The translations under genes and the position numbers were made by a program. A stretch of 44,122 bases of DNA, taken from positions 1-44,122 of IMG/VR virus record IMGVR_UViG_3300047557_002041, one strand, 5' to 3'. Below the pieces are notes generated by a model. It saw only the letters and a list, made by a program, of their open reading frames with translations, was not told where the DNA came from and searched no databases. Shown here one piece after another: positions 5,806 to 44,122 of the stretch (position 1 is its first letter; each line of letters starts with the position of its first letter). The stretch comes from a virus.

Positions 5806-8723
5806 TGGCTGAGATTCGTAAGTTAAGCGCGTTGGTGCGCCAAGAAGCGTCGCTTGCGGATGTGGTCTTAGAGTGCGCCTCAGGAAAGTTCCCCGGCCTC
5901 ACTGCCGATAGCGCCGCAGGTAAGTTTGTAGGCAACCACGGCACTCATACGGGTGGAGATGGCGCTTGTGTCCTAGATTTAAACACGCAGCGCTGGGTAT
6001 GCCACAAGTGCCGTCAAGAAGGTAACGAGATCTGGCAGGGTGATGTCATTGCGTGGGTCCAATCCACTCAGTTTGACGGAGACCGTACCCGCTACCGCGA
6101 CGCCATTGACTGGCTGTGCGATTACTACCACATCGAAAAGACGATGAACCCTGCCGATAAGGCAGAGTACGATGTCTTTGAATCGTTATCAGAGCTTACC
6201 GAGTTCTGGCACGAGCGTTTAATTGCGTTGCCTGAGCGCCTCGATTGGATTGAGGAAAAGTGGGGCTTAACCAAACAGACGGTTAGCGAACTAAAGCTGG
6301 GGTTCTGTGATGAGATACCAAAGGGCATGGAACAAGGAACGTTGATCAATGCCGGTGTGGTCGATTTTCACTACAACCAACCCTTAGCCAATCGGATTAT
6401 CTGGCCGTATTTTCAGTACGGGCAGGTGGTCTATATGTCCGGCCGACTTCCGTACGATACGGCCGACAAGACGACCCCTAAGTACACCAACCTATATAAG
6501 ACGGATTACGTCCGCCCCACCCTTTACAACTTTGATAACGCCTACGGATATGATCGCAAGCATCGGGACGAGACACTTGCCGGGGTAGCTAAGACCAAGT
6601 GGCCCCTTATCTTTACCGAAGGGTTGCCCGATGCCGCAGCAGCACATCAATTTGGCTTACGGGCCGTAGCCCCCGGAGGGGCTTCCTCCTTTTCTGCGGC
6701 CATGCAAGCTGATACAAAAGTACTATTGGATCGGTGTGACGATTGCTTCAAGTACATTGTGTTTGATAGCGACAAAGCTGGGCAGCGTGGTTCGCGGGCA
6801 CTTGCGCAGAACTTGGCCGTGTTAGGTACCGACGCCATTATTGCCGATTTGCCTTCTAAGGAAGGTGAGAAGCTAGACCTTGCCGACTACTTACGCACCA
6901 CCACCCCCGAAGAGCTGTTCAATTACTTTTTGCAATTTAGTAACCCCACAACAGGGGAGCAAAACACCTTAGCCGCTTCTTTAATTCGGGAGATGTCTGC
7001 GACATCTGAAACTCGCCAGTTTAAAGAAGTGATGGAGGTATTGACGTTTCTACCTCACTCCAAGCAAGAACGTTACCTCAGTCTGCTGGCTGATAAAACG
7101 AAGTCGAATAAGTCGGCGCTTAAAAAGGAGATGGTGGAGGTCCAGAAAAAGGCGAAGACCACCAAGCTGCGTATTATTGAGGACTACGAGCGTAACCCGT
7201 TCTACGCCCAAGACTTTAGTTATGACGAAGTGACTAAGGTCTGGCGGGCGTACCGTTGCCTTCACGTCCCGTTTGAGGAGACTATTACTCAAGGTGTTGA
7301 GGAGACGACCTATACAGTGCGTAAGCCGGTGCTTATCACCATGGCAATGTACAAGGACGGTAACTTTGCTATTGAAAAGACCGAAGTTATGAACCTAGAC
7401 ACTATGACCGATGACCAGAAAACGAGGATCCCTCACGAACGGATCACGACCAAAGAATCAAATCGCTGGTCAATGAAGCGGCAGCATGTGTACTCGTACC
7501 AACAGTTTCAGGAAAAAGGTGGGCGGATTGAGATAGATCCGGGGAGGCTTTATGACGATATATTGGCGGAGCTTAAGCGCTATGTGTGGATGCCGGACGA
7601 ACAAGAGTTCGTACCGCTGGCACTATATATCATGTACACCTACATTTATATGGGCTTTTCGTCCTGTCCGTATATCCATCTACGTGGGCAGCCCGGCACA
7701 GGTAAGTCCACAACAGGAAGGATCATTGATTACTTGGGCTTCTATTCGATACCATCGGGAAGTACAACAGAGGCTGCCCTTTTCCGCTCGGCTCATGCTG
7801 GACGTGGATTGTTCGTTTTCGAAGAAGCAGAGAAGCTTAATAATCCACAAGATGGGACAACTGCGGCAGCCATCGTTGCACTCTGCAATGTCGGATACAC
7901 CAACGATGACAGCGCGTACGCTATCCGTTGCAACACGAACGACTACGGCGAACAAGACTACTTCTTCGTGTACGGGCCAAAGGTATTTGTTTCCACTAAA
8001 GGTTTGAAGAATACCTTATCGGAACGCTCTATCGTCTTTGAGTTTAGTAAAGGTAACGAGAAGAATATTAACCTCAATTACCGTGATTTCTTGGATGACC
8101 TAGACACACGGCAAGGCGAGCTGCAAGAGATTCGGGACAGGCTGCATGTGTGGTCCCTGACACGGTTCCGCGCCGTCCGAGAAGTGTTTGACGAGCTTCG
8201 CGATTCCTTCTTTTGTGAAGGCATGACACCACGGACAAAGCAAATCTGGATGCCTTTATTTGCTCTAGCTCGCTACGTTGGTGAGGCTAAGGGCACCGAC
8301 CTACTGACGCCGCTCATTGACCTTTCTATGAAGAAAATGAAACGCGCGCAGATTGTCGCTAACCAGTCCGACTTTGCTGTGACTGTACTTACGGCTTTGT
8401 ACGAATTGTACAAAGACAACCCTGAGACGGCTGGGGTGCACACTGTCGACGACGTAGAGTACCTGAACGGGTCTAAGGCTTCTACCCAAATCCAACTGTA
8501 CTTGAACAAAGAACAGGAATGGAAGGAAGGGTTCAACAGACTACAGGCTACGTTCATCGTAGAAGGACTGCGTAAAGCAGGGGCTATAGACAAGATGGCG
8601 AAGCCAGAGCGCCGAATGATTGGAGGTGAGCGAGTTCGTGTCTATCGGTTCGATGGAGAAGCTCTTGGAACGTATATAACGACTATCAATGCGGGTTTAG
8701 AGGAAGGTGAGGGCGATGCCTAA
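5805..8723 (+). CDS. Primase-helicase fusion (zinc finger, TOPRIM, AAA/SF3-like)
   Basis: 972 residues. A zinc-binding region lies near residues 40-72 (C, then CHKC). The TOPRIM fold is at about 265-350, with the catalytic Glu in FTEGLPDAAAA and the acidic pair in VFDSDKAG. The C-terminal ATPase has Walker A GQPGTGKST near 627 and Walker B LFVFEEAE near 670. It would both prime and unwind at the fork. This layout resembles T7 gp4 in logic, but the ATPase looks more like the SF3/AAA type of primase-helicases than RecA-like gp4. It lies between a helicase and the polymerase in one operon. Confidence 0.92.
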   Translation: MAEIRKLSALVRQEASLADVVLECASGKFPGLTADSAAGKFVGNHGTHTGGDGACVLDLNTQRWVCHKCRQEGNEIWQGDVIAWVQSTQFDGDRTRYRDAIDWLCDYYHIEKTMNPADKAEYDVFESLSELTEFWHERLIALPERLDWIEEKWGLTKQTVSELKLGFCDEIPKGMEQGTLINAGVVDFHYNQPLANRIIWPYFQYGQVVYMSGRLPYDTADKTTPKYTNLYKTDYVRPTLYNFDNAYGYDRKHRDETLAGVAKTKWPLIFTEGLPDAAAAHQFGLRAVAPGGASSFSAAMQADTKVLLDRCDDCFKYIVFDSDKAGQRGSRALAQNLAVLGTDAIIADLPSKEGEKLDLADYLRTTTPEELFNYFLQFSNPTTGEQNTLAASLIREMSATSETRQFKEVMEVLTFLPHSKQERYLSLLADKTKSNKSALKKEMVEVQKKAKTTKLRIIEDYERNPFYAQDFSYDEVTKVWRAYRCLHVPFEETITQGVEETTYTVRKPVLITMAMYKDGNFAIEKTEVMNLDTMTDDQKTRIPHERITTKESNRWSMKRQHVYSYQQFQEKGGRIEIDPGRLYDDILAELKRYVWMPDEQEFVPLALYIMYTYIYMGFSSCPYIHLRGQPGTGKSTTGRIIDYLGFYSIPSGSTTEAALFRSAHAGRGLFVFEEAEKLNNPQDGTTAAAIVALCNVGYTNDDSAYAIRCNTNDYGEQDYFFVYGPKVFVSTKGLKNTLSERSIVFEFSKGNEKNINLNYRDFLDDLDTRQGELQEIRDRLHVWSLTRFRAVREVFDELRDSFFCEGMTPRTKQIWMPLFALARYVGEAKGTDLLTPLIDLSMKKMKRAQIVANQSDFAVTVLTALYELYKDNPETAGVHTVDDVEYLNGSKASTQIQLYLNKEQEWKEGFNRLQATFIVEGLRKAGAIDKMAKPERRMIGGERVRVYRFDGEALGTYITTINAGLEEGEGDA

Positions 8724-10824
8724 GGTAACAATTTTAGAAGATATGTCCGAGGATGCGCAAGCTAAGGCGTTTGCGTTCTGTGATATGGTGCTTGCCAATT
8801 CTAGTCGGATGGTGGCGTGCGACACCGAGACAATGGGGAAGCAGTGGTACCAGATTGACCAGAAGATCCGCGCTTCGACAGATGCGCAGGAGATTAAAAA
8901 GTTAAAGAAGGAACAGGCGGCGTGCAGTAAAGAAGCGTTGTCACCCAGAACCAATTACCTCGCCTGTTTGCAGATAGGGGCGTCTAATTACGACGCCTTG
9001 GTTATTGTGACTAAGGGGGACGGTGAGGCGTTAGCAAAGACTGTAATGCGCAAGTTGATGGGTAACGGGCTTACATGGGTACTCCATAACGCCAAGTTCG
9101 ACCTTACCCAGTTCTTACACCACTGGGAACTTTCATTCCTAGACGAACACGTCCACGACACAATGGTGTGTGAATCCCTTATTATTGGCAACCGCGCCGC
9201 AATGAGCGTTTCGTTAAAAGATACAATGCCGCGTTACCGTATCGACGAGGAGTTTGTAAAGAACGACATTGGGGCAGCGGTGTCTAACTGGTGGGATGGG
9301 CTGACTAAAGAGCAGATTGCCTACGCCTCTAAAGATGTAATGGCGCTGTGCGACTTGGCCAAGCAGCAAAAAGAGATTATGGCGAACAACCAGCAGCTAC
9401 GGCTACGCCAATTAGAGTGCCGTTTAGTAGCGCCATTAACCCACATCGAGCAAGTCGGCCTTCACTTTGACGAAGCGAAGCTCAAGCGCTTTCTGTGCGA
9501 AGGTAAGATGGTAGCGGCTAAGTTCAAGGAACAGGCTTTTGAGGTCTTTGACGGTTGTAACCTGCTCTCTTCTCAGCAGGTACTGGCTAAGATTCAATCC
9601 CACTACGGAGTTACACCCGTAACTCGTAAGTTTGATGCTAAGACCGGCACCTTTGTGGATGAGCCTTCGTCCGATAAGTGGGCTTTGTTAGCGGCTGGAA
9701 TCCATCGAGAACCCGCTATAGCCGCTTTACTTCATTATAAAGAGCTGATGGGGCAGTTTAAGTTGGCGGAGACGTGGCTTGCTGCCAACCCATTACACAT
9801 TAGTTTTTTCCAAGTGCCTATGCGCGACGATGCGGGTGACGCTGGAGGGGCTAGGTCCGGGCGAATGTCCGCCTCTCCTCGACTACAGAACGTCCCCAAC
9901 TTTATGAAGCAGTTTGTAGTAGCCCCCGACGGGTGGTGCATCCTATCTTCTGACTACGCTGGGATTGAATTGCGTATTATCGCAGCTCTGTCTGGTGACG
10001 AGCGGATGCTTAAGGCGTTCCGTGAAGATATCTCGCTTCACAAGATGACGTGTGAATGGGCGTTAAATGTCCCCTACGCTGAGGTGAATAAGAAGGCGCC
10101 GTACTATACGGTGTCTAAAAACATCAACTTTGGTTTACCGTATGGGATGAAACCAAACAAGCTAAGGTTTCAGATCCTCAAAGGGACGAATGGGGATGTG
10201 CACATTACTGAGGATGAGGCCAAGGCGTATCACGAACTGTACTACGTCAACCACCCCAGCATTGGGCCGTGGCAGACACGGATGTTCTGGGACGCGTGCA
10301 CCAAAGGGTATACGGAGACACGGGCGGGCAGGCGCAGGTACTATAACGAAGCCGACCGCCCCGTAATGAATAAGATGTACGGGCGCCTATCTGACCCTCA
10401 AGGCGGCTTTGTTGATGAGAATTTTAACCCCATGGCCAGTTACCGCGCGGCGGACTGGCGGTGGCGTAACATTGCGTACAACACCCCTGTACAAGGAACA
10501 GGGGCCGACGGTCTAAAACAGGCGCTCGGTATGCTAGTACGTGAGTTAGACCCTTCACGAGCCAAGGTATTTGGAACGGTGCACGATAGTATTGACACCT
10601 TAGTCCGCTTAGATAGTGTTGATTATGCTTTAGATGTGCAGCACCAATGTATGGTGGACGGCATGACCATGTTTGTACCAGAAGTTCCGATTGAAGTGGA
10701 GCACACCGTTGGGCGCTGTTGGGCATCCCCGCCTGTTGATATAAAGACAGATAATTACGGGCTCTGGCAGGAGGACGATCTACAAAAACTCATCCTGCCC
10801 ACAAGTATGCGGCAACCCGTGTAA
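8716..10824 (+). CDS. Family A DNA polymerase with 3'-5' exonuclease
   Basis: 702 residues from ATG 8716, chosen over GTG 8707 because AGGAAGG is correctly spaced for it. The DEDDy exonuclease is complete: CDTET near 35, HNAKFD near 124, YASKD near 203. Polymerase motif A is SDYAGIELR near 412; motif B is KNINFGLPYG near 467 (Phe at the sugar-discriminating site); motif C is VHDS near 621, where most relatives have VHDE. No 5'-3' nuclease domain. It is the replicative polymerase. The start overlaps the primase gene by 8 bases, and the 3' end overlaps the antisense gene below by 45 bases. Confidence 0.95.
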   Translation: MPKVTILEDMSEDAQAKAFAFCDMVLANSSRMVACDTETMGKQWYQIDQKIRASTDAQEIKKLKKEQAACSKEALSPRTNYLACLQIGASNYDALVIVTKGDGEALAKTVMRKLMGNGLTWVLHNAKFDLTQFLHHWELSFLDEHVHDTMVCESLIIGNRAAMSVSLKDTMPRYRIDEEFVKNDIGAAVSNWWDGLTKEQIAYASKDVMALCDLAKQQKEIMANNQQLRLRQLECRLVAPLTHIEQVGLHFDEAKLKRFLCEGKMVAAKFKEQAFEVFDGCNLLSSQQVLAKIQSHYGVTPVTRKFDAKTGTFVDEPSSDKWALLAAGIHREPAIAALLHYKELMGQFKLAETWLAANPLHISFFQVPMRDDAGDAGGARSGRMSASPRLQNVPNFMKQFVVAPDGWCILSSDYAGIELRIIAALSGDERMLKAFREDISLHKMTCEWALNVPYAEVNKKAPYYTVSKNINFGLPYGMKPNKLRFQILKGTNGDVHITEDEAKAYHELYYVNHPSIGPWQTRMFWDACTKGYTETRAGRRRYYNEADRPVMNKMYGRLSDPQGGFVDENFNPMASYRAADWRWRNIAYNTPVQGTGADGLKQALGMLVRELDPSRAKVFGTVHDSIDTLVRLDSVDYALDVQHQCMVDGMTMFVPEVPIEVEHTVGRCWASPPVDIKTDNYGLWQEDDLQKLILPTSMRQPV

Positions 10825-23788: not shown

Positions 23789-25631
23789 TGGCGCCCTCTT
23801 TTAATGCTTGCTGGCCAAAAAAGCCTTTGATCTTGTCCGCAAAAGTGGGTTGCTGCATATTGACCTGCTGCATCATGGCTTGTGCTTGGGGCAGAATCAG
23901 GCGGCTTATATTGCGGACCCCTTGGTTCTCGAAGACCACTTTGAGGGCTTCTGGCCAGTTTAGAATCTGTTGTAGCATAGGCTGTTGCGCAGCCATTGTC
24001 AAGGTTTGCAGCAATGCGTTGGCTTGAACTTGTTTTGTAATATTGTACGAAGCGCCCCGCATTGTGAACTTGATGTCGTTCATTAAATACGTAGGGTCGA
24101 ATACGTACTCTTCGTTGGGGTTGTCTTTCCGGCGGAAGGTTCTGGGTTCGGTATTCATTTGACGAAGCAAGTCAACCAGCATCTCTAATACAGGAGTGAT
24201 GGCTTCCTTTTCAATGGTTTTAGCGTACAAATTCAAACGTGTGTTACCGGCGTTCGCCACTTGCATGGCTACACCCGTTTTCATGTACTCAGAAGCGTTG
24301 CCGCCTGACGTTAATTCACTATCACCAGTGGCGCGGACCATCTGCATCTCAAGGTGCGCCATAATAGCGGTAGGGTCTTGATGCGTTAGCTTGGAGCTAC
24401 CTTCAGCGCGGCGTAACGTTCCGGGTTGGCGCACATGGATAACGGTATCTGCGGACATTGGGGGGAGTGTCTTCTTACCGTTCTTAGCAAAAGACACTAG
24501 GTTTTGTGTCACCAATTCCCAAGGCCGGTTATTCTCCATAGACCAGCCGTCGATGTATTGGTTCAATACGGTATCTTTAGCCGCTTGAATGCCGGTAATG
24601 GAGCTTAAGGGGGTGTGCCCGTAGATACGGTTGGTTTCAGTGGTGTAGCGGGCGATGACAAACGGCTTACTCGACATGGAGTATGGGTTTGGCTCAAAGC
24701 GGATGAGCTTATTGTTCATTACTTCTGCCACGTAGTTTTTGTAAACGGTTTGCCCGTCTACAAAATCACCCCACGCTTCGTACACTTGCACTTTGTCGCC
24801 GTACTCAGACATGGAGAATTGGTAGTTGCGGCGTGTTTCTTCTTTAATTTGTTCGCGATTAGACTCCGTATTGCTCGCAAACGAGGGGGCGGCATTAACA
24901 GCTTCCCAAGTTACGGTATACGCAGGGTTCGCCATAATTTCTTCTTTAGGCACTGGTTTTTGGAAAATGAGCGTGGCCGTCCGCACGTCTCTAGCGGTGG
25001 GGTCGATGACTGTGTATAACAGGTTTAACGGAGTAAACTTAGGGGCGTCGTAGCGCACCTCTTGGTATTCTTGGAATACAACTTCAGGTCCGCCTTCTGA
25101 TAAGGCTTGAATTTTTCTCCAACGGGGGTAGGTTTCGCGACACCATTCCAAAGACGCAATAGCGGTCCCGTACTGTACGAGGTCTCGTAAAAAGGGTACA
25201 AAATCCTGCTCAAAGTTCATGGAGTCTAAGACCCACATTAAGTAGTCTTTGACCGCTGACGTTTTGTCAGAATCAAGGCCATCGAGCGGGACGACATCGA
25301 AGAAATCGTAGTCGTTCTGCATAAGATATTGGATAATTGCGGCTACGAGCCCTTCTCTATGGGCATAGGTGTCCGTCATTTTAATTTTTGACCCAAACCG
25401 GGTTGGGGTTTTAAACTGGGTCGCGATATCGCCTTGCTCTTGAAGGCTGTACACAGGGTCAAACTGGTTGACTTGGCGGTCGATTTCTTGCCATAGGTCT
25501 TCAATACTACGGCGTTGTTGCTTCCACGTAGAGTACTGCGACGTAATAGTCTGGGCGATGCGGTCCGCCTGTTCTGCTGCCAGGTCAGCGAGCTGGACCG
25601 CTTTTACAGATTTCCAGTTGAGTTCGTTCAT
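23697..25631 (-). CDS. Portal protein
   Basis: 644 residues, the right size for a podovirus portal (P22 725, T7 536). It starts with helical segments (QADRIAQTITSQYSTWKQQRRSIEDLWQEIDR). It continues with segments typical of portals (KIKMTDTYAHREGLVAAIIQYLMQND, TPLNLLYTVIDPTARD, RYTTETNRIYGHTPLSSITGIQ, YIDGWSMENNRPWEL) and ends with helices rich in Gln/Met (AQAMMQQVNMQQP), possibly lining the crown or barrel. It forms the 12-mer entry vertex for packaging. It lies upstream of scaffold and coat. Confidence 0.85.
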   Translation of the reverse strand: MNELNWKSVKAVQLADLAAEQADRIAQTITSQYSTWKQQRRSIEDLWQEIDRQVNQFDPVYSLQEQGDIATQFKTPTRFGSKIKMTDTYAHREGLVAAIIQYLMQNDYDFFDVVPLDGLDSDKTSAVKDYLMWVLDSMNFEQDFVPFLRDLVQYGTAIASLEWCRETYPRWRKIQALSEGGPEVVFQEYQEVRYDAPKFTPLNLLYTVIDPTARDVRTATLIFQKPVPKEEIMANPAYTVTWEAVNAAPSFASNTESNREQIKEETRRNYQFSMSEYGDKVQVYEAWGDFVDGQTVYKNYVAEVMNNKLIRFEPNPYSMSSKPFVIARYTTETNRIYGHTPLSSITGIQAAKDTVLNQYIDGWSMENNRPWELVTQNLVSFAKNGKKTLPPMSADTVIHVRQPGTLRRAEGSSKLTHQDPTAIMAHLEMQMVRATGDSELTSGGNASEYMKTGVAMQVANAGNTRLNLYAKTIEKEAITPVLEMLVDLLRQMNTEPRTFRRKDNPNEEYVFDPTYLMNDIKFTMRGASYNITKQVQANALLQTLTMAAQQPMLQQILNWPEALKVVFENQGVRNISRLILPQAQAMMQQVNMQQPTFADKIKGFFGQQALKEGANAQPDTSAVGGSTVSQVGGEGQVSPFAPVQ

Positions 25632-28600
25632 TAGTCGCCCTTTATCCGCGTTTTTAACTTGTTCTCATTGTACTTAGGGTACTTGTCTTTGATGCGTTGT
25701 TTTAAACGCTCATATTGCGATTGTACCTGCTGCCGTTGTCCGGGGTCTTCGGTTGTTTGCATCTTAGTATAGTAGTTTTTGGCTTCTTGCACCAATTTTT
25801 TAGACGGCAATGCGTTATCGCCTTTTACTTTACCTTTACGCAACTCTTTAACCAAAGCTGATATAACTGCGTCACCTTTAGCTTTAGCGTCTTGGGCGGC
25901 TAACTCTGGGTACTTATCCGCAAGCTGTTGCACTTTAGCGGTGAGATCTTCTTTGGGTAGGTCTTTAGCCAACTTACTAAGAGCTTGACGGTCTGCGGTG
26001 TAATTGTCAATGGCTTGTTTTTGTTTAGATCCTTTTAAAAAGACGTTTGCGTAAGCGTCAAAACCAGAACGCACCACAGGGTAGCCTTGTTTCTGAGTAA
26101 CGCCACCAGCGCCGTGTGTCTCAACCGCAGCGTCTGTTAAACGCGCCATTAAATACGTTGCTGGTGCGGCGGCTGGTGTAAGCGAGGCAGTTAAAGCTAC
26201 AGGATCAGCTAGTGCGTGCACACCTGCTTGCATTTTACGCACCAAGTCTGCGTCTTCGTCTGTCAGCACTGCGGTCGCTGTATTTGCTTTATCAAACCAC
26301 GTCATCATACCCGGGGCTTGTATAAGCGGTTGGTTAAATTGTGGGCCAACCGGGATGTCCGTAAAATTCAACCATGTTGCGTCTAAAGCGTTTGCCGGAG
26401 TGGGGGCATCTCGCATTGCTTGAAATTTATCTGCTTGATCTGGAAAAGTAGTGATTAAAGTATTGTAAACGCGAGGGTCGGCTAACGCTTGTCCGCCCCC
26501 AAAAAGGTATTTAAAACCAATGTAGCGCAGCAACCCTGCTCTTTGATTTTTGGCTAGCCATAAAACACGCTCGGCTTCGTTTAACCCTGCGCGCATAAAT
26601 GGAAAAGCAGCAGCGGCGGGCGTACGCATTACTGGGCGGGCTGTGTAAGTCGACCACGACGGAGATACTTGGGATAACTTGCGGTGCGCTTCAGCCATAA
26701 TTTCATTACGAGTTGCGTAAGAGTTACGGAGTTGTTGCGTGGATTCACCTTGCAGCGCTCTTCGTACTAACGATCCTTTTTTAAACACTTGCTCGTAGGT
26801 TAAACCGCGCGCTTTTAGTTCTTCTGTTACAGCGGCGTACAAGTACGCCGCGCGTATGTATTTTTCTGCCGCAATAATGGGGTTCTCTGGTCGAGTTAAT
26901 TGTTTACCGTAAAGTTCCGCAATTTGTTGCGCTGCATCTACATCTGTCACACCAGCCATATGATTGGCAAAATGGCGCCCGTTTTTAGTAAAGCCTACAC
27001 CTACTAAACTTTTGCTTAATGTAGAAACGGGTAAATCTGAGGCTCCAAAAAATAAAGGTATGTTGTTGCCTACAACGTTGACTCGGCCTTGCAACACAGC
27101 AGCTTGCCATCGCGCGGACGCGCGTAAAAGTTCCCGTGTCCCGACATCCATAGGGTTACCAAGCCCCACATCCACCATTGTTTCCGCTGCTTGGCGAAGG
27201 CTGGGGTTTTCGGATTGTAAAAGCGGGAGCACTTTATTGATAGGGGCATCTGGGCGCAGCACGTATTTAGCGCCGTCCCACTCAACGGGGGCGAACGATG
27301 CTTGGCGAATTAGGCGGTCGATGTGCTTTAGCATGGATTCGCCAGCAGTCTCGTTAGCGCGAGCTGCCTTCGGGGCGCCGCGTTTAAAAAACGCACTGGA
27401 TTTAATAGCGCTTTCTTTAGGCGATGTTACTACAGCACCTGTCTTTGGGTCGATTACAAACGGTAGGTTCTCAGTATTTGCATACTCCTGAGCGTAGTAA
27501 TTTTTGTTTCCTTTAAACCCTATAACAGTCGGTAATGTTTCACGCAAAACATCAAGTTCTTTTACATAAGCCGCTACATCATCAGGAATACCATATTGAA
27601 CAGCAAGATCAACTTGGCCTCGATGAAGGGTGCCTACTTCATTTTCCATTAAAGCTTTTTTAACTGCGGCATCTACAGGGGTGCCTTTAATTTTAGAGCC
27701 TATCTTGTCCTCCATATGCGCTAAGACAGTCATAAGTTCTGGGCGTAATAGGCTATCATTACCCATAGCTACGGCTGCGGCTTGAATAGCGTCGTCACCT
27801 AGCACATGTGCCGAGTCCATGAACGCTCGCGTAGCAAGAGGGACCAGTGGCATATGATTAGCAACCCATTCCGTTGCCGACTTGGCTATCGCGCCGGGTA
27901 AATCTAATAAAGCCCCAGTATTTAAATGGCCGGATTGTGCGGCTCTAACTACCGGGCCTTTTTTTTTTCTCTCCTCGGCAATTACTTGGCGCATCTGTGC
28001 AACTAGTTTATCTTCGGCTTCTTGCTTCATTAACGAAGCCATTTTAGCTTCTTGCACCGATTGAGCGACCCAAGCGTCCATTGCTTGCTGCTGCTGCGTC
28101 GCTTTGCCAACTTGGTTCGCCTTGATGGCTTGCATACCTTGCTGGACTTGCTGTATCCAAGCAGCCTCCGCTTGCTGTTTCTGCGCAGCCGAAAGCTGTT
28201 GGTTCGCCCTGATCTCAGCAACGCCTTGCTGGGCTTTCTGCACCCAAGCGTCCATCGCTTGCTGTTGCTGCGCGGATAAAGCGTCTGCGGTCGGTGTCGC
28301 AGGCATAGGAGAGGGCTCATATTGTTGAAGCTGTTGCATCTCAGCATTTAGCTGACGCTGCCGTGCTTCTATAGGTAAATTACCGGCATCTGTAACAACA
28401 GAAGGGGGTGCGCTAGACACTTCCGGTAGTAAATTGTGAGTTTGCTGGACGTTGCCGCGCAACAAACGGACTTCCCCAGAAGGGCCGTATTCAATGTCAG
28501 GTACTAGGCCGCCCATACCGCGACGTGCAGTAGGCTCATAACGCATACCCTCAGGTATTTGCATATTCTCAGGCATAGCGCCAGATGAAACTTTAATTCC

Positions 28601-29344
28601 TGACGGGTCTGTCGTCATTGGCGTGTCTGGTAAATAACGCTCTTGTGCTAGCTCGTCTACTGCACTTGCGCGGCCTGTTAATCGACGGGCGACTCCGGGT
28701 ATTTTGCTAGCGGCGGCTAGACTTATTGGAATGCCTGCGCCTAATGCGGTGCTTAGTCCGGGGTTTAATAAGCCTTCGGCCATGACGTCTTGACCGGCAG
28801 CCGCACGTTCTACGGCACGGTTGACTACGTCTGTTCCATAACCTAACGCGGCGTTTGCAGCAATTGTAGGCAATGCGCCACCTGCTTGGACAAAGGGTAC
28901 AGCCCCGGCGACGCCTGTCGTAAACGCTGGGAGCGTAGTATTTAAAGGGGTTTGTTGTACATTAGCGTCTTTAAGCTCGTCTTCCCGCCGTGCAAGTTCA
29001 TAAGCGCCAATTAACGTAGCTGCGGCTGGGATTGTAGCCCCTCCTGTAAAAGGTGCCATAGCGGCTCCAGCAACCCCAATGCCTATTTCTGGTAGCCGGT
29101 CGCCTAGAAAACCAGCAGGGCCGTATTCTTGTTGCGTCTGGTCAGTCCAAGGGAAGGCTACGGAATTAACTACGCCTTTGCCAAAATCCTGCGCGGCTTG
29201 GCCTACATTACCTAACATATCTTGTGCAGATTGCTGCCAAGAAATACCAGCTTGTTTTGGTTGTGCTGCTGGAGCTGGAAGCGCTTCTTGGATGTTAAAT
29301 TGCTTTGAATATGCTGCCGCTTCAGCGGGGCTTAATTCTTTCAT
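25631..29344 (-). CDS. Large internal virion (ejection) protein, T7 gp16-like position
   Basis: 1,237 residues. The N-terminal 230 residues alternate Gly/Ala-rich hydrophobic stretches (GIGVAGAAMAPFTGGATIPAAATLIGA; AVPFVQAGGALPTIAANAALGYG), as in membrane-penetrating ejection proteins. Residues about 355-440 hold three Gln-rich helical repeats (QQQAMDAWV...). The rest is mostly helical to a lysine-rich end (QSQYERLKQRIKDKYPKYNENKLKTRIKGD). It should leave the capsid with the DNA and form the cell-envelope channel. Unlike T7 gp16, no lytic transglycosylase motif is seen. Confidence 0.8.
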   Translation of the reverse strand: MKELSPAEAAAYSKQFNIQEALPAPAAQPKQAGISWQQSAQDMLGNVGQAAQDFGKGVVNSVAFPWTDQTQQEYGPAGFLGDRLPEIGIGVAGAAMAPFTGGATIPAAATLIGAYELARREDELKDANVQQTPLNTTLPAFTTGVAGAVPFVQAGGALPTIAANAALGYGTDVVNRAVERAAAGQDVMAEGLLNPGLSTALGAGIPISLAAASKIPGVARRLTGRASAVDELAQERYLPDTPMTTDPSGIKVSSGAMPENMQIPEGMRYEPTARRGMGGLVPDIEYGPSGEVRLLRGNVQQTHNLLPEVSSAPPSVVTDAGNLPIEARQRQLNAEMQQLQQYEPSPMPATPTADALSAQQQQAMDAWVQKAQQGVAEIRANQQLSAAQKQQAEAAWIQQVQQGMQAIKANQVGKATQQQQAMDAWVAQSVQEAKMASLMKQEAEDKLVAQMRQVIAEERKKKGPVVRAAQSGHLNTGALLDLPGAIAKSATEWVANHMPLVPLATRAFMDSAHVLGDDAIQAAAVAMGNDSLLRPELMTVLAHMEDKIGSKIKGTPVDAAVKKALMENEVGTLHRGQVDLAVQYGIPDDVAAYVKELDVLRETLPTVIGFKGNKNYYAQEYANTENLPFVIDPKTGAVVTSPKESAIKSSAFFKRGAPKAARANETAGESMLKHIDRLIRQASFAPVEWDGAKYVLRPDAPINKVLPLLQSENPSLRQAAETMVDVGLGNPMDVGTRELLRASARWQAAVLQGRVNVVGNNIPLFFGASDLPVSTLSKSLVGVGFTKNGRHFANHMAGVTDVDAAQQIAELYGKQLTRPENPIIAAEKYIRAAYLYAAVTEELKARGLTYEQVFKKGSLVRRALQGESTQQLRNSYATRNEIMAEAHRKLSQVSPSWSTYTARPVMRTPAAAAFPFMRAGLNEAERVLWLAKNQRAGLLRYIGFKYLFGGGQALADPRVYNTLITTFPDQADKFQAMRDAPTPANALDATWLNFTDIPVGPQFNQPLIQAPGMMTWFDKANTATAVLTDEDADLVRKMQAGVHALADPVALTASLTPAAAPATYLMARLTDAAVETHGAGGVTQKQGYPVVRSGFDAYANVFLKGSKQKQAIDNYTADRQALSKLAKDLPKEDLTAKVQQLADKYPELAAQDAKAKGDAVISALVKELRKGKVKGDNALPSKKLVQEAKNYYTKMQTTEDPGQRQQVQSQYERLKQRIKDKYPKYNENKLKTRIKGD

Positions 29345-32266: not shown

Positions 32267-33784
32267 CTAATAACCAGTGTACGGATTAACATTTGTTTTT
32301 GGAATAGCTACCACAGAAAGCTCTGCCCCAAAAGTTGGGAAGACGGGCGAGCCGTTCATAAGATAGTGTACAGGATAACGGGCTGCATCGCCAACGTGTT
32401 CATAATCGCCATCTTTAAGCCATTCTTCTTTAGGCTCTCCCACTTTGCGTTCTGAGTAAACCAAACCTGTAGAAATGGCCTCTAAGAGCCATAAACAATC
32501 AGGGTGGTCGGATATTTGGAAGCCGCCGCGCCGGTGCATAAACGAGCGCATGATTTGAATACCGGGCGCTATTTTTTGGTACTCGGTAATCGGCCATTGG
32601 TTTGTGACGTAAGAGATTTCCTCTACGGCGGTTGTGCCTGTAAAATCATCTTGTTTGCGGGCTGCAACGTCGGCATAAACTTCTAAAGAAAAGCCGGGGA
32701 AGGTGCGTTGTATTTTTGTCCAGCATTTTTGTACGAAAAGTGGGAAAGTTATTTCACGGGTGCCCTTATATGCGCGAATGTAAGTCAGGCGCATCAAATC
32801 CATGTCTAATTGGCCCACCACGCACGCCTTATTAAGGCCGGGGTCAAAGCACACAAATAGGGGGTAATTTGGGTTTAATTCTAATTCTTCATCCTTTTTA
32901 ACATGGTCGTTGTAAGAAAAATCGTTGGAAAAGACGGCTTCACCAGCGAGCTTACGAGGTTGCCCTAAATAGTGTTCTTTAAAGTATTCGTCCCCTTTTC
33001 CTAGAGCTTTGAGCTGCGCCTTAATAGCATCGATATTTTTACGTAGGAACGGGGAAACGTGGTATGTAAAAGAGGCGGCAAAATCATGTTTATTAGGGTC
33101 ACGACGCTGCTCGAAAGCGGTTTTAAATAGGTAATGGTAAAAGTTACCGGTGTAGCCGGTTGGAGAATTAGGGTCGCGCTTACCTTCACCTAAAAAAGTG
33201 CTGGCGCAAACCACAATACCGCCTGTTTTACCTACACGAGCTACTGCTTCAGCATAGATAGTATTAGGTTGCTTGTCGTATTTGGATAATTCGTCCAGAA
33301 TAACCACTTGGCAAGGATTACCCGTAATGGCTTTAATGGAGTGAGGGACAGCTTTTAGTCGAGATCTTGTAGCAGCCACGCGGAGCTCGCCATCGGACAC
33401 CGAATCAATATCCAGCTCACGGAGCGCCGGGACCTTATGGCAAGAAATGAAACGGTCCTTAACATCGGTCAGAATCCTTTTGGATTGCTCATCGTTTGTG
33501 GATAGCAGTAGGACGCGCTGCCCCGGAAAAGCGTAAAGGCAAGTGGCGGCAATAAGGGCCATGCCTAAAGACTTGCCTGACTGGGAAGGGGCTTGGAACT
33601 TTGTAAAACGGTACATGCCTGCAAGAATGAGCATTGCCCGTTGGAATGGAAGCAACGGAAAAGTGCGTTCGCTTTCATGCAGCGTAGATTGGTCGAACAT
33701 AGCGTTGGCGGCATCGAGTAGCCAGAACGGGTTTTGCCCGTCAATCAGTATGTTCTGGTGCGGTGACGTGGTCGATAAAGGCAT
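32267..33784 (-). CDS. terL: Terminase large subunit
   Basis: 505 residues with all expected motifs: Walker A APSQSGKS (65-72), Walker B VVILDE (to 165), and the RNase H-like nuclease triad D313 (CFDPG), D371 (DVAARK) and D465 (HVGDAARY). It drives DNA into the head and cuts it. It overlaps the small subunit gene by 44 bases. Family type (headful or cos) cannot be told without alignment. Confidence 0.95.
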   Translation of the reverse strand: MPLSTTSPHQNILIDGQNPFWLLDAANAMFDQSTLHESERTFPLLPFQRAMLILAGMYRFTKFQAPSQSGKSLGMALIAATCLYAFPGQRVLLLSTNDEQSKRILTDVKDRFISCHKVPALRELDIDSVSDGELRVAATRSRLKAVPHSIKAITGNPCQVVILDELSKYDKQPNTIYAEAVARVGKTGGIVVCASTFLGEGKRDPNSPTGYTGNFYHYLFKTAFEQRRDPNKHDFAASFTYHVSPFLRKNIDAIKAQLKALGKGDEYFKEHYLGQPRKLAGEAVFSNDFSYNDHVKKDEELELNPNYPLFVCFDPGLNKACVVGQLDMDLMRLTYIRAYKGTREITFPLFVQKCWTKIQRTFPGFSLEVYADVAARKQDDFTGTTAVEEISYVTNQWPITEYQKIAPGIQIMRSFMHRRGGFQISDHPDCLWLLEAISTGLVYSERKVGEPKEEWLKDGDYEHVGDAARYPVHYLMNGSPVFPTFGAELSVVAIPKTNVNPYTGY

Positions 33785-34778: not shown

Positions 34779-35285
34779 AAACACGTATTTGGCAGCTTGT
34801 ATTTCGTATTGTTTCAAATCTGCCTTGCGTTGCTCTTTGGGCACCGTGGGGTTGGCTGCCTGATACCGAAGGCGCCCGTCAATCTTTAGGCGCTCAAACT
34901 CCATAAAGCGCTGTAAGGGTATAAAGGGCCATTTGAGGGCAGAAAGGAACTGCACCCAGTGGGCGTCGTTAAAGGGCTGGTCGTGTTCGCCTTTAATATG
35001 GAAGGGTTCTAAAGCCACAGGGTTGATTTCAGGCACTTCGTCTTTTAGTTCCTGAAATTCCTCCTCCACCTTCTCCCATGTATCAGGGTGCATGTTACGT
35101 TTAAGACTGCGTAACCGTTGTGCTTCGTTCTTTAGTTGTGGGTCTAGCTTTACTTCTACGAGCCCACGGTCATAAGCTTGCCACACGTAATCGCCCATCT
35201 CTTGCAGAGCATCCAGTGTAGGCAATGGCCGTGGTTGCCACGTGTCCATTCGGGCCGTGAGAGTTGGGGGTAGCTTAGCCTTCAA
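34764..35285 (-). CDS. Hypothetical protein, 173 aa
   Basis: Helical, charged protein (LRSLKRNMHPDTWEKVEEEFQELKDEVPE; WPFIPLQRFMEFERLKIDGR). It overlaps the HNH gene by 11 bases and is the last gene of the early minus operon. No family recognised. Its final 15 bases are duplicated beyond the terminator. Confidence 0.65.
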   Translation of the reverse strand: MKAKLPPTLTARMDTWQPRPLPTLDALQEMGDYVWQAYDRGLVEVKLDPQLKNEAQRLRSLKRNMHPDTWEKVEEEFQELKDEVPEINPVALEPFHIKGEHDQPFNDAHWVQFLSALKWPFIPLQRFMEFERLKIDGRLRYQAANPTVPKEQRKADLKQYEIQAAKYVFDVVG

Positions 35286-35622
35286 GGTTTAATCTCCCTG
35301 TTTTATGCATGTCTACATGGCACTGGCGGCACACTAAAGCGCATTTGGCTGCTTCGGTTAGTATTTTTTGCGTGCCTTTAACCACGCCTTCCCCTCTTAA
35401 TATACTGCCAATAGTTCCTTGGTCCAAGGTAAATCGCTTTTCTTTTGGATTTAAGTGGTGCAAGTCTGCATCGTAGAAATCAACACCCATATGGCATTTT
35501 TGACATTCATTATTCCAAACGCCTAGTAGACTGGCTCGCATTTGATGTTCACGTTGACCACCAAAGTAGGGCATGTAGCTTTTACTGGGTACAAAAGAGC
35601 CGTAACCGAGAAGCTGAACCAT
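35275..35622 (-). CDS. HNH endonuclease
   Basis: 115 residues from ATG 35622, behind GGAGGTG. Zinc-binding pairs CxxC (C40, C43) and CxxC (C98, C101) frame the HNH core: DLHHLNP (H55, H56, N58) and the second part CHVDMH (H102, H106). It may be a free-standing homing nuclease or a packaging-associated HNH as in cos phages. It is in a separate operon from terminase, which favours the former. Confidence 0.85.
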   Translation of the reverse strand: MVQLLGYGSFVPSKSYMPYFGGQREHQMRASLLGVWNNECQKCHMGVDFYDADLHHLNPKEKRFTLDQGTIGSILRGEGVVKGTQKILTEAAKCALVCRQCHVDMHKTGRLNLEG

Positions 35623-35675
35623 GCAAACACCTCCAAGCCACAAAGTAGTAGGTTTAAAGGGCGGTTATGTGACGG

Positions 35676-36502: not shown

Positions 36503-36529
36503 TGGTCATTGGGCTCCTTTCTTTGTTCT

Positions 36530-36557
36530 ATTATAATACTGTTTTGAAAAAATGCAA
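36530..36557 (-). promoter_or_regulatory. Early minus-strand promoter
   Basis: On the minus strand: TTGCAT (36557-36552), 16-base spacer, consensus TATAAT (36535-36530) in the context GTATTATAATAG, the same -10 context as the plus-strand early promoter at 37633. The -35 is weak. The two promoters face outward from the 1.1 kb non-coding region. Confidence 0.65.
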
Positions 36558-36570
36558 ATAATTTTCTTTG

Positions 36571-36600
36571 GGGACGGGTCCCTTTAGTAAGGAATTTTTT
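36571..36600 (+). terminator. Hairpins followed by a T-run, function unclear
   Basis: GGGAC-GG-GTCCC (36571-36582) and CCTT-tagt-AAGG (36581-36592) are followed by a T-rich run. On the plus strand this looks like a weak terminator that would keep plus-strand transcripts from entering the minus operon. It could equally be part of the origin region. Confidence 0.35.
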
Positions 36601-36890
36601 TATTTTTCCCTACCCCCCACGCCCAACGCTCACTGCTCAGCGTTCAACGCCCAACACAATAGACCAATGCCATTGTTCAAAGAACATAGCCCATCGATCG
36701 ACCATTAAATACCCTCGATAAGCCAACAAAAGCCGATTACCTAAGGGTAAATAAGAGCGTCAATTGGTTTTGTTAGGTGTCATAGGCCAATGATCGTTGA
36801 ACAGAGAGTGTATAACTCATTCTAGGATCGACGAGAATGGGCCTTGATTATGTTTTAGGTACTTTGGGTAGGGGTAATTGGCTCTGGTTT

Positions 36891-37064
36891 TTGATCTTTG
36901 GGCATTGAACAATGAACTACTACAAGAGTCGTGTCCACCCGTCCACTTGCCCGTCCACTAGTGGACAGGGTGGACATCCCTTGGTGGGAGCGGATTTCGG
37001 CGATTTGCGTCCACACGTCCACTCATTTTATGGGAAGGGTAGGGGGGTTGATCTTTGGGCATTG
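36891..37064. repeat. 17-bp direct repeat
   Basis: TTGATCTTTGGGCATTG occurs at 36891-36907 and 37048-37064. A related inverted form (caatgttcaatgccc) lies at 37402-37416. These add to the repeat set of the origin-like region. Confidence 0.6.
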
Positions 37065-37399
37065 GTCAGGTGGCCTACCATCTATTTATATTATATATAT
37101 TGTTCCTCTCTCTCTCTCTCTCTCTCTCTCTCGCCTTCACTATAAGAAAAGCCATTTGGCCACCTGGCCATCCCCTATTATTTAAGTGGACCGGTGGCCA
37201 CAAAACGGGCAATCCCTTGCGCCCCAACGGTTTCGGCGCTGTCCACTAGTGGACGGGCAATTGGACGGGTGGACATGATTCTCTGTGAGAGGATTCTATA
37301 CAAAGTACAGTAAAAAGGTGTTTTTGAAACACTGTCTATGAGCGGGATGTCCACCCTGTCCACTAGTGGCCACACGTGGCCACACGTGGCCACAAAACG
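36933..37399. other. Candidate replication origin: inverted and tandem GTGGAC/GTGGCC repeats
   Basis: A 34-base segment at 36933-36966 recurs inverted at 37241-37274 with one mismatch. A 28-base segment at 36953-36980 recurs inverted at 37344-37371 with one mismatch. Both pairs share the perfect palindrome GTCCACTAGTGGAC (36953-36966; 37241-37254), with a near copy at 37358-37371. GTGGCCACA-type 10-base units follow in tandem at 37366, 37376 and 37386, and GTGGCCACAAAACG also occurs at 37194. There are no supported genes in 36558-37693. An AT-rich stretch lies directly to the right. This resembles iteron origins; alternatives are a regulatory or packaging region. Confidence 0.65.
37106..37132 (+). 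repeat. (CT)13 microsatellite
   Basis: Twenty-seven bases of alternating C and T, preceded by an alternating AT-rich run (37082-37103). Such a tract is rare in a compact phage genome. It lies in the centre of the inverted repeats and could form triplex or H-DNA, act as a protein site, or vary in length between isolates. Confidence 0.8.
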
Positions 37400-37439
37400 A
37401 CCAATGTTCAATGCCCTACATCCAAAGCCCATACACCGT

Positions 37440-37632
37440 ATATCTATCATATACATGTAAAGAAATGTTAAAGACTATTATAAAATTAACAATCTTTATA
37501 GTATAATATTATAATAATACGTCTTTGTAACATAACTTAACAATGTAAACAGCAACTTTACAATGTTAAGCACGTCTTAACATTATTAAGAATTGTAACT
37601 AATGTAAACAATGTAACAAACTATAAAAAAGG
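37440..37632. other. AT-rich element with TTAACA/TGTAAA repeats (candidate unwinding region)
   Basis: About 190 bases of very high A+T with repeated short words on both strands: TTAACA, TGTTAA, AATGTAAAC and AACAATGTAA. CTTAACA near 37537 and TGTTAAG near 37564 are arms of an inverted repeat. It adjoins the iteron-like block and ends at the promoter at 37633. The layout fits a DNA unwinding element. No DnaA-box consensus (TTATCCACA) was seen. Confidence 0.55.
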
Positions 37633-37660
37633 TTGACAGTTAAAACAATGCTATTATAAT
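37633..37660 (+). promoter_or_regulatory. Early plus-strand promoter
   Basis: Consensus TTGACA (37633-37638), 16-base spacer, consensus TATAAT (37655-37660). It precedes the run of small early genes from 37694 and is divergent from the promoter at 36530. Confidence 0.85.
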
Positions 37661-37693
37661 AGAGTTAAGAGAAACGGAAGGAGCCCAAGCATC

Positions 37694-37930: not shown

Positions 37931-38054
37931 CGATGGTTGGCTTATATCCGATGTGCTAAACGGATATCTAGTCTCCCGCAAGTACTTTTTCTATACCAAA
38001 AAAGAAGCCATTGCCCTATTCAAACAGGAGGTGTACACCAACTATGTTCAATGA
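37905..38054 (+). CDS. Small early protein, 49 aa (paralogue of 39578 gene)
   Basis: Starts at ATG 37905 after GGAAGGAA. MTIE-x(7)-W-x-IS, then a G-x-LV, YF-x-Y-x-KKEA-x-ALFK-x-E pattern is shared with the 44-residue gene at 39578-39712. The pair are clear paralogues of one small family. Predicted strands followed by a KKEA helix. Function unknown. Confidence 0.75.
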   Translation: MTIERLPFNDGWLISDVLNGYLVSRKYFFYTKKEAIALFKQEVYTNYVQ

Positions 38055-39577: not shown

Positions 39578-39712
39578 ATGACAATAGAAAAAACATATCA
39601 AGGGGCTTGGTGTATCTCCGCCATTATTGACGGCCACCTAGTCACAAAACAATACTTTGGCTATAGCAAAAAAGAAGCCGTAGCCCTGTTTAAAGAGGAG
39701 ACAGCACAATGA
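39578..39712 (+). CDS. Small early protein, 44 aa (paralogue of 37905 gene)
   Basis: ATG 39578 after CGAAAGGTTACACA. Shares the MTIE...W-x-IS...G-x-LV...YF-x-Y-x-KKEA-x-ALFK-x-E pattern with the 49-residue gene at 37905-38054. The stop overlaps the next start as ATGA. Conservation between the two copies shows both are genuine genes. Confidence 0.75.
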   Translation: MTIEKTYQGAWCISAIIDGHLVTKQYFGYSKKEAVALFKEETAQ

Positions 39713-40313: not shown

Positions 40314-40529
40314 TTGCACTACAGAGTAAAGATCAAAGAAACGGCAAGAAACCAACAAAAAACAATGACCGATGTTTGCAGAGCGTTGGATATTGACCCG
40401 CCCACGCTATACCATTGGAACGCTGGAAGGTCTTTTCCACGTATTCCAATGTTCATAGACCTTGCCCGTTACCTAAATACCACAATCGACGCTCTTTTAG
40501 AGGAGGTCTCGCCCGATGCAGAAAATTAA
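40314..40529 (+). CDS. XRE-family helix-turn-helix regulator, 71 aa
   Basis: A complete HTH domain reads KIKETARNQQKTMTDVCRALDIDPPTLYHWNAGRSFPRIPMFIDLARYLNTTIDALLEE. The start is TTG 40314, needed to include the first helix, with GAGGA 8 bases upstream; the later ATG at 40365 would truncate the domain. It is a candidate repressor or activator of early promoters. It overlaps the next gene by 14 bases. Confidence 0.78.
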   Translation: MHYRVKIKETARNQQKTMTDVCRALDIDPPTLYHWNAGRSFPRIPMFIDLARYLNTTIDALLEEVSPDAEN

Positions 40530-41052
40530 GTTCCATTGGACAGAGCAAGAGGACCGAACCCTATTAGACGGAGCCAAGGCATACCAACAAGGCTTAATTA
40601 CACCCCAAGAGGTGTATAAAGCCCTCCCCAAGCGTTCTAAAGATGCTATCCGTTCTCGTATTCAGTACCTTACAGGCTATGGCCTTAAGGGTCGTCCAGT
40701 TGTAAAAAAACATTGGACAGCGACCGAAGAACACGCCCTGATGACTTACGCCACACGAGAAACCCTTGCCCAATTAGCCAAGCGGTTTAATTGTTCAGTA
40801 ATAGCAATTAAGAATAAGCTTAAAAGGCTAAATACGTCGATCACAGAGCTTAGAATCGGGGCCAGCTATGAGGATCCCGAAATCTTGGCACGTTGCAACC
40901 CTCGGACTCTTGCAAGAGTTCTACGTAATAACGAACCTGTACGGCTATGGTATCGTGATCACGCCCCCTATACCACTCTATTAAGTCTCCCCAAAACCTT
41001 ATTATCTCGAATGGTCATAGAACAAAGAGGGCTTTACAATGGCAAAGCTTAG
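40516..41052 (+). CDS. Tandem SANT/Myb-like DNA-binding protein
   Basis: 178 residues. Two homeodomain-like repeats start at HWTEQEDRTLLDGAKAY...PKRSKDAIRSRIQYL (about residues 7-53) and HWTATEEHALMTYA...RFNCSVIAIKNKLKRL (about 66-107). The spaced Trp and the final R/K-x-R-L helix are typical of SANT/Myb-type HTH proteins. The C-terminal 70 residues are unrelated. It probably binds DNA as an early regulator. It overlaps the following gene, which carries another such repeat. Confidence 0.72.
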   Translation: MQKIKFHWTEQEDRTLLDGAKAYQQGLITPQEVYKALPKRSKDAIRSRIQYLTGYGLKGRPVVKKHWTATEEHALMTYATRETLAQLAKRFNCSVIAIKNKLKRLNTSITELRIGASYEDPEILARCNPRTLARVLRNNEPVRLWYRDHAPYTTLLSLPKTLLSRMVIEQRGLYNGKA

Positions 41053-41293
41053 GATTCAATGGACAATTCCTGAACTCAAGGAATTCCAGCGTTTATGGAA
41101 TGAGGACAGGGTACCTATTGCAGAAATACCAGTGTTATTGAATAAACAGGTTTCTGCACAACACCTCAGGGATACGGCCCATCGACTTAGGCAAGCTGGT
41201 TTCTATTTTAAGACAGCCCGCCGTATAGGGAACAAGCAATTTAACGATGTAGTCGATCTGGCTAGGCTAGCCAATTTACAACGCTATGAGTAG
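41039..41293 (+). CDS. Single SANT/Myb-like domain protein, 84 aa
   Basis: RIQWTIPELKEFQRLWNEDRVPIAEIPVLLNKQVSAQHLRDTAHRLRQAGF repeats the pattern of the domains in the preceding gene: W-T-x2-E, helix, then a final helix with HRLR. It looks like a third copy of the same domain in its own gene. The start overlaps the previous gene by 14 bases. Confidence 0.65.
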   Translation: MAKLRIQWTIPELKEFQRLWNEDRVPIAEIPVLLNKQVSAQHLRDTAHRLRQAGFYFKTARRIGNKQFNDVVDLARLANLQRYE

Positions 41294-41866: not shown

Positions 41867-42113
41867 CACCATCCACCCAAAAGCCCTAAAAGAATATCGG
41901 CAAGATTTAGAAAATGCTACATTAGAGTTTATTGGTAAAAACCTTAGTGATTGGGGACGCTATCTCAACGACTCCTCCCCGCTATGGAATCGTGTGGATT
42001 GGCTAAACAACCGTATTGAAGCTCTTGGTTGTGGCCGACCACTCACCCGTAATATGGGCTCATGGATTATCTTTCAGCACATCAACCGTGCATTATTGGA
42101 GGGTGCAAGATGA
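41859..42113 (+). CDS. Small early protein, 84 aa (paralogue of the join-spanning gene)
   Basis: Full-length copy of the family also encoded at 43890-44122/1-149. The centre (YRQDLENATLEFIGKNLSDW..., WIIFQHINRALLEG) is identical at protein and DNA level, while the first 12 and last 2 residues differ. Ribosome site GCAAGGAG. It overlaps both neighbours. Function unknown. Confidence 0.75.
   Translation: MTNTIHPKALKEYRQDLENATLEFIGKNLSDWGRYLNDSSPLWNRVDWLNNRIEALGCGRPLTRNMGSWIIFQHINRALLEGAR
41889..42091. repeat. 203-bp exact direct repeat, copy 1 (copy 2: 43920-44122)
   Basis: Bases 41889-42091 are identical to 43920-44122. The spacing is 2,031 bp. Both copies lie inside paralogous coding sequences whose flanks are similar but clearly diverged on each side. 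This indicates recent gene conversion or an assembly effect. The contig ends exactly at the last identical base. Confidence 0.9.
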
Positions 42114-43893: not shown

Positions 43894-44122
43894 GAACTAA
43901 TTTACACCCCAAGGTAATTAAAGAATATCGGCAAGATTTAGAAAATGCTACATTAGAGTTTATTGGTAAAAACCTTAGTGATTGGGGACGCTATCTCAAC
44001 GACTCCTCCCCGCTATGGAATCGTGTGGATTGGCTAAACAACCGTATTGAAGCTCTTGGTTGTGGCCGACCACTCACCCGTAATATGGGCTCATGGATTA
44101 TCTTTCAGCACATCAACCGTGC
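43890..44122 (+). CDS. Small early protein, 5' part (continues at 1-149)
   Basis: GTG 43890 has AAAGGAGG upstream and overlaps the previous stop. The frame runs to the window end and continues exactly at base 3 of the window after removal of the 127-base redundancy, giving 84 residues. N-terminus MRTNLHPKVIKEY versus MTNTIHPKALKEY in the paralogue at 41859; the centre is identical. Confidence 0.8.
   Translation, partial: MRTNLHPKVIKEYRQDLENATLEFIGKNLSDWGRYLNDSSPLWNRVDWLNNRIEALGCGRPLTRNMGSWIIFQHINR
43996..44122. repeat. Terminal redundancy, copy 2 (matches 1-127)
   Basis: Exact copy of bases 1-127. It is also the right part of the second copy of the 203-bp repeat. See the entry at 1-127. Confidence 0.9.

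Follow-up and report, generated by a model that had tools for sequence, protein, structure and literature searches.

How does a phage that encodes its own replication proteins start to copy its genome when none of these proteins is recognizable as an initiator? For most environmental phages the origin has yet to be located, since the sequences of the initiators and of their sites are not conserved. The question is raised here by a viral contig of 44,122 bases (IMGVR_UViG_3300047557_002041), which we call the window and analysed at its full length. A sequence-only reading had proposed that a gene-free region near 37 kb, with long inverted repeats, is the replication origin. From the analysis of its sequence, we consider it reasonably probable that this region is indeed a phage replication origin, which shares its place with the divergent promoters of the early and late operons. 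We favour this reading because of its dense boxes, its inverted blocks, the presence of the genome's AT-richest stretch, and the recurrence of such boxes at replication genes in other replicons.

Genome setting of the non-coding region

The first 127 bases of the window are identical to the last 127 (1-127 and 43996-44122), and the contig thus appears to be circular with an assembly overlap. Closure is likely but uncertain, because the overlap falls within a 203-bp internal repeat (41889-42091 = 43920-44122). The likeness to 41965-42103 runs past the terminal overlap, and the sequence suggests that an early gene was duplicated at the closure point of the contig.

Judging by its genes, the 44-kb genome is that of a tailed phage with its own replication genes, since it encodes an SU10-type portal and a large terminase, together with a Toprim primase, an SF2 helicase, and a DNA polymerase of family A. 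The phage is probably a podovirus. The genes between 36502 and 13871 are read leftward, and those from 37694 on, past the contig end and as far as 13473, are read rightward. According to the ORF lists, the late (minus strand) and early (plus strand) operons are separated by a non-coding control region of 1191 bp (36503-37693), which is the longest gap without a supported ORF in the genome (the second longest has 639 bp) and agrees with the gene-free region first described. The opening part of the adjoining leftward operon contains an HNH-like gene (35275-35643) and the gene of the large terminase subunit (32267-33784, minus strand; phrog_2, 1.6e-25). The terminase genes closest to the region are 1.2-3.3 kb distant. 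Searches of the region against Rfam and for tRNA gave no matches, and we rejected a structured RNA or a tRNA.

The two divergent promoters of the sequence-only reading were recovered in a consensus scan. The leftward late operon has a promoter-like site of the sigma-70 type (36558-36530, minus strand; TTTGCA-17-TATAAT), and the early operon has a predicted sigma-70 promoter of consensus sequence (37633-37660, plus strand; TTGACA-16-TATAAT). The plus-strand GC skew at 4-fold degenerate sites changes from +0.37 on the left of the region to -0.32 on its right, and weakens with distance. The switch is sharp and real. However, in bacteria the maximum of the cumulative skew conventionally marks the terminus, and the sign at the region is the opposite of that usual for origins. 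Gene direction also changes at this position, and codon preference might produce such a signal, so the skew supports neither reading and we rejected it as proof of an origin.

An array of boxes around a TA/CT tract

Direct reading of the sequence and a repeat search both recovered the two inverted-repeat pairs reported earlier, 36933-36966 with 37241-37274 and 36953-36980 with 37344-37371, each with one mismatch. The repeat search also gave a 72-nt pair at 78% identity and a perfect 26-bp pair (36955-36980 and 37344-37369). The 14-bp palindrome said to be common to these repeats is present (GTCCACTAGTGGAC at 36953-36966), but its third copy is imperfect (GTCCACTAGTGGCC). Both pairs are parts of a larger structure that had gone unnoticed, made of two inverted blocks of about 98 bp with a common centre at 37103.5, and a third block. 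Block L (36925-37023, plus strand) carries seven GTCCAC boxes, at 36933, 36941, 36953, 36961, 36970, 37009, and 37017. Block R (37185-37282, minus strand) is its inverted copy, 78% identical, with boxes at 37186, 37241, 37249, and 37269. Block 3 (37344-37393, minus strand) has a perfect 26-bp inverted match to 36955-36980 and boxes at 37349 and 37358, which are followed by three copies of GTGGCCAC at 10-bp spacing. Midway between blocks L and R lies a TATTATATATATTGTTC(CT)13 tract (37087-37131, plus strand), also absent from the earlier description, whose CT run (37106-37131) is the only (CT)4 or longer run in the genome. The centre of the blocks coincides with the junction between the TA-rich stretch and the CT run.

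The array unit, GTCCAC, occurs 13 times within 431 bp (36933-37363) and 13 times in the remaining genome (Poisson p of 4e-21 at the genome's own rate). Ten additional copies of the variant GGCCAC, not noticed before (p of 2e-15), bring about 460 bp (36933-37393) to 13 GTCCAC and 10 GGCCAC. No other hexamer clusters as strongly in the genome, and in 20 dinucleotide shuffles of the whole sequence the best cluster had 6 copies, compared with the 13 seen here. Folded as single-stranded DNA, the region scores 8.9 s.d. better than shuffles. The AT-rich block described to the right of the repeats (37439-37638, 21.5% GC) proved to be the AT-richest stretch of the genome at window sizes of 100, 150, and 200 bp. 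It contains repeats of the type AACAATGTAA and is a candidate DNA unwinding element.

The region thus has the initiator-sized cluster of boxes and the adjacent AT-rich region of iteron/box origins, and we infer that it would work like one, as a candidate that we place in no named family. An early-operon phage protein would bind the GTCCAC boxes, and more weakly the GGCCAC boxes, in blocks L, R, and 3. Once bound, it would bend the inverted blocks, or pair them with each other, around the TA/CT tract; the duplex would open at the TA tract or in the adjacent AT-rich stretch (37439-37638). The primase-helicase, the SF2 helicase, and the family A polymerase would then begin synthesis. A DnaA-dependent (oriC-like) origin was rejected, since there are no DnaA boxes (TTWTNCACA or TTGTCCACA) in the region, and their counts are at chance level. 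The origin interpretation of the earlier reading therefore stands as the best one, strengthened by the AT-rich stretch and by arrays at replication genes elsewhere, whereas its appeal to the skew is ambiguous and it had not considered packaging (see below). Besides the reversed sign of the skew, points that count against it are the association of TA/CT tracts with terminase genes, a cluster of the same boxes at an integrase gene in other phages, the double-dyad matches in bacterial genomes, of which one in eight could be placed at a replication gene, and the distance between the array and the primase-helicase gene.

Replication proteins and candidate initiators

As stated earlier, the phage encodes its own primase-helicase and polymerase, and profile searches of its proteins recognized no Rep/O-type initiator. 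Three replication genes follow one another on the plus strand. They encode an SF2 (ResIII/UvsW-like) DNA helicase (4525-5805; PF04851 3.8e-24, phrog_16 1e-73), which is a candidate for a helicase acting at the origin, a 972-aa protein with a Toprim primase and an ATPase/helicase-like domain (5805-8723; Toprim_2 and DnaG-type matches), which is a candidate initiator, and a family A DNA polymerase (8707-10824; PF00476 4.9e-47). Three small DNA-binding-like early genes (40314-41293, plus strand), encoding an HTH protein, a Myb-like protein, and an 84-aa protein of unknown type, are alternative candidates for binding the boxes. The small XRE or SANT-like proteins had been suggested as possible initiators; all that points to them is their likeness to DNA-binding proteins, and the primase-helicase or the SF2 helicase are at least as good candidates. 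An AlphaFold prediction of the Myb-like protein made without alignment gave a partial model. For a putative C-terminal winged helix in the primase-helicase, single-sequence modelling gave a pLDDT of 35 and a search of the PDB gave no match. The boxes would most likely be bound by the Toprim primase-helicase itself, in the way that P4 alpha binds the repeats of its origin, or by one of the small early DNA-binding proteins.

The C-terminal part of the primase-helicase (about 400 residues) is 22-26% identical to Toprim/DUF3631 proteins of small plasmids from Acinetobacter, Thermus, Deinococcus, and Streptomyces, with which it shares a helicase-like domain with a Walker A motif; one archaeal virus also encodes a protein resembling this part. 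On these plasmids, ParA-like genes are found before or after the gene of the relative, a large HTH protein is encoded upstream, and the listed annotation contains no other initiators. Two of the plasmids have non-coding arrays of 8-mers, with five copies of GCGTGTCA in L008 and nine of CCGCTACC in L012, where the array adjoins the DUF3631 gene (shuffles gave at most four copies in both). In three others (L007, L010, and L011) the 8-mer arrays are no stronger than in shuffles. These results fit a family of primase-helicases working with replicon-specific boxes, although the large HTH protein of the plasmids is another candidate binder. The L012 array, at 1653-1810 of a 14-kb Streptomyces plasmid, is itself a candidate origin.

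GTCCAC arrays in other replicons

Queries with the terminase, the polymerase, the primase, and a strict pattern of the palindrome identified no relatives carrying the region. They matched one near-identical contig from the same sample (L005; 28 kb, 100% identity over 20.8 kb), from which the region is absent. Because no recognizable relative carries it, the comparisons below rely on motif and design, which is weaker than homology.

We scanned viral contigs for GTCCACNNGTGGAC followed by GTGGAC within 30 bases and obtained 34 stretches, mostly isolated matches. Ranking them by the number of boxes per 450 bp and keeping those with at least six resulted in eight viral groups (L031, L016, L025, L048, L029, L017/L027, L039, and L023). 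The GTCCAC clusters are at replication genes in five of the eight. They lie inside the gene of an O-like initiator in L016 (phrog_270, with DnaB adjoining) and L048 (phrog_270, 3.5e-37), and inside a weakly DnaD/O-like gene in L025 (E of 0.01). In L031 the cluster comes directly after the gene of a RepA-like AAA_25 helicase. In L039 it comes directly after that of a Prim-Pol/DUF3987 helicase, on a contig that also encodes a polymerase A and an SF2 helicase. Such a count would be reached by chance with a probability of 4e-4 to 1e-2 at a base rate of 0.1-0.2, which is assumed and not measured. The L029 cluster resembles actinobacterial DnaA boxes. In L017 (4619-4956) and L027 (4463-4800), the array flanks the gene of an integrase with an arm-binding domain, and its sequence context makes it probable that these arrays are attP arm sites.

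A scan of bacterial genomes for the double dyad gave eight matches. One of them (L081) is directly upstream of the gene of a Rep3 plasmid initiator, with a ParA-like gene adjoining; for the other seven, the flanking sequence that was read shows no replication gene at the match, or allowed no judgement. By these sequence scans, the GTCCAC motif is enriched at origins. Yet it is also found elsewhere and is not confined to them, given the matches at integrase-flanking and non-replication sites. Two Rhizobium/Sinorhizobium phages that share the Prim-Pol of L039 have arrays of other boxes directly after that gene. These are TTCCAAA/AATTCCA arrays (L089, 10280-10482; L091, 10445-10637) and are candidate origins.

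Comparison with known origins

A similar gene layout is known from the Lactococcus phages of Ceduovirus (c2/bIL67), whose origins lie where the early and late blocks diverge (PMC7150918). The region of the window is likewise non-coding and placed between divergent early and late operons. However, the Ceduovirus origins replicate plasmids without phage proteins, using an untranslated early transcript, whereas the window phage has a primase-helicase and a polymerase, and a dense array of boxes.

In phage P4, the winged helix of the alpha protein binds the origin repeats (PMC4234260). Like P4, the window has clustered short repeats in both orientations and, in the same genome, one protein that unites a Toprim primase with a helicase-like domain. 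The boxes differ in sequence, the array and the primase gene are far apart, and the solved domain of P4 alpha has no sequence match in the primase-helicase of the window. In origins of the pRN1 type, a primase-SF3 helicase binds a large stem-loop behind its own gene. The pRN1 origin itself lies directly downstream of the primase-helicase gene, and pRN1 lacks iterons (PMC4234260). The large inverted repeat of the window can form a long stem, as does the stem-loop of pRN1, and the arrays of L039, L089, and L091 are directly after the gene of a Prim-Pol helicase. In contrast, the primase of the window is of the Toprim type and its gene is not adjacent to the region.

In OriS of herpes simplex, inverted boxes flank an AT-rich spacer and an extra inverted box can form a hairpin (PMC12543377). 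The window also has inverted boxes flanking a spacer, an extra block, and an SF2 helicase. This is an analogy only, since the box sequence differs, the boxes are far more numerous, and the order is L-tract-R-3 instead of 3-1-spacer-2. The helicase is of the UvsW/ResIII type, as opposed to UL9 in OriS, and we claim no homology. L039, L055, L058, L104, and the L051 group encode SF2 helicases of the phrog_16 family, as does the window, whereas L066, L099, and L057 do not. This co-occurrence gives a lead towards a UL9-like reading, and a lead only, because helicases of this kind are frequent among phages.

Hexamer arrays at TA/CT tracts in other phages

Since L039 has GTCCAC boxes together with a TATATATATTTT(CT)n tract, we scanned viral contigs for such tracts (ATATAT followed by (CT)10). 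We found 31 stretches in around 17 unrelated groups besides the window. Compared with the other segments of its contig, the tract segment ranks first or close to first in hexamer clustering in L053 (0/61), L055 (0/79), L058 (0/117), and L064 (1/102), as it does in the window (0/416). Weaker arrays are present in the L051 group, L057, and L066, and no hexamer array is found at the tract in most other tract-bearing groups. A scan for repeats in the reverse order, meant as a negative control, revealed two more arrays, in L104 (0/63) and L099 (1/112); hence the TA-then-CT order is inessential and the reverse scan is no clean control. The tally of good cases is provisional, because the lists of boxes were read after the sequences had been seen.

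The hexamers differ from phage to phage. They are GTTACG in L055 (16 copies), CGTTAC in the L051 group, ATGTTG in L058, CAACGA in L066, GATCAC in L064, GTGTCC in L104, AACTAA in L099, and GTCCAC in the window and L039. The strongest array of this design is in L055, a 23-kb viral contig, with its 16 boxes around the tract at 8000-9050. In L058 (4950-5850), eight boxes surround a tract located between divergent genes and directly upstream of the terminase region. In several contigs (L050, L052, L054/L067, L062, L065, L069, and L070), the contig end is about 100 bp or less from the tract, as expected equally from genome ends and from assembly breaks at a repeat of variable length.

We found nothing relevant in the literature on phage origins with dinucleotide tracts. 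That several phage groups, unrelated to one another, have TA/CT tracts between arrays of a hexamer of their own is, at the level of sequence, a new observation. We tentatively suggest that they represent a recurring, undescribed cis-element of phages, an OriS-like origin possibly opened by an SF2 helicase, which may double as a packaging start. If this layout marks origins or packaging starts, it would provide a sequence-independent finder of them in uncultivated phages. If it marks origins, self-initiation by Toprim primase-helicases or SF2 helicases would become testable; if it is a packaging site instead, termini and packaging mode could be predicted from contigs alone.

Packaging, regulation, and recombination

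TA/CT tracts are often upstream of terminase genes, which makes packaging a real rival to the origin reading. The region would then be a packaging initiation site (pac or cos), where a small or HNH-assisted terminase reads the boxes and cuts in or near the central tract. In nearly all tract groups with a clear match to the large terminase, its gene is downstream and points away from the tract. The distance is usually 0.3-3.5 kb (0.3-1.6 kb in L051, L053, L058, L063, L064, L072, L073, and L075), reaching 3-8 kb in other groups, and in the window the large terminase gene starts 3.3 kb left of the tract. The gene of a small terminase comes directly after the tract in L072 and L075, and in the window the HNH-like gene and the terminase are at the head of the adjoining operon. 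In phage P1, the hexamer elements of pac flank the cut region on both sides. The window also has hexamers on either side of a centre, and in many tract phages the array is near the terminase; the window site differs from pac in its hexamer and in being outside the small-terminase gene. In L064 (10850-11912), upstream of the terminase gene, the boxes adjoining the TA/CT tract read TGATC(A/G), the pac hexamer of P1.

However, position alone does not decide, because the early/late junction holds most of the non-coding DNA and packaging genes are often preceded by replication genes. In L039, which shares the boxes and the tract, the array adjoins a primase-helicase gene, and 17 kb of sequence gave no match to a terminase. 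The module of L104 is at least 12 kb from the terminase, the tract of L092 (a contig without array) lies after the terminase gene, and several genes lie between the region and the terminase genes of the window. GTCCAC arrays located within initiator genes or beside the rep gene of a plasmid cannot serve as packaging sites of an ordinary type. We regard packaging as an unlikely explanation, next to the replication origin that we favour. The roles may also be combined in one region.

Regulation alone is in our view improbable. The boxes would then be operators or enhancers for a repressor or activator that switches the divergent promoters, such as the HTH proteins encoded at 40314 or 2298 or the Myb-like protein at 40516, and would have no role in replication. 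The array does lie between two divergent promoters, the phage has several small DNA-binding-like proteins, and palindromic 14-mers suit dimeric HTH proteins. But the boxes overlap neither promoter (the closest are about 240 bp and 375 bp off), and 23 sites, two inverted blocks of about 98 bp, and a dinucleotide tract exceed the needs of an operator. Regulation also leaves the AT-rich stretch without explanation. A recombination or maintenance site (attP arm sites or a partition site) or a decayed mobile repeat, as the integrase-flanking arrays of L017/L027 might suggest, is very improbable, since neither integrase, transposase, nor ParAB was recognized among the scanned proteins of the window (which left out some small ORFs) and the repeats occur nowhere else in the genome.

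Other repeats were noted in the window. A 17-bp direct repeat, TTGATCTTTGGGCATTG-like, occurs at 36891-36907 and 37048-37064, and degenerate copies of GGGCATTG/CAATGCCC are found in the gap 36503-37693, e.g., at 37402-37431. The early region has a 48-bp direct repeat (37983-38030 and 39653-39700, 83% identity), and a 1237-aa ORF (25631-29344) contains diverged internal repeats at 28068-28273.
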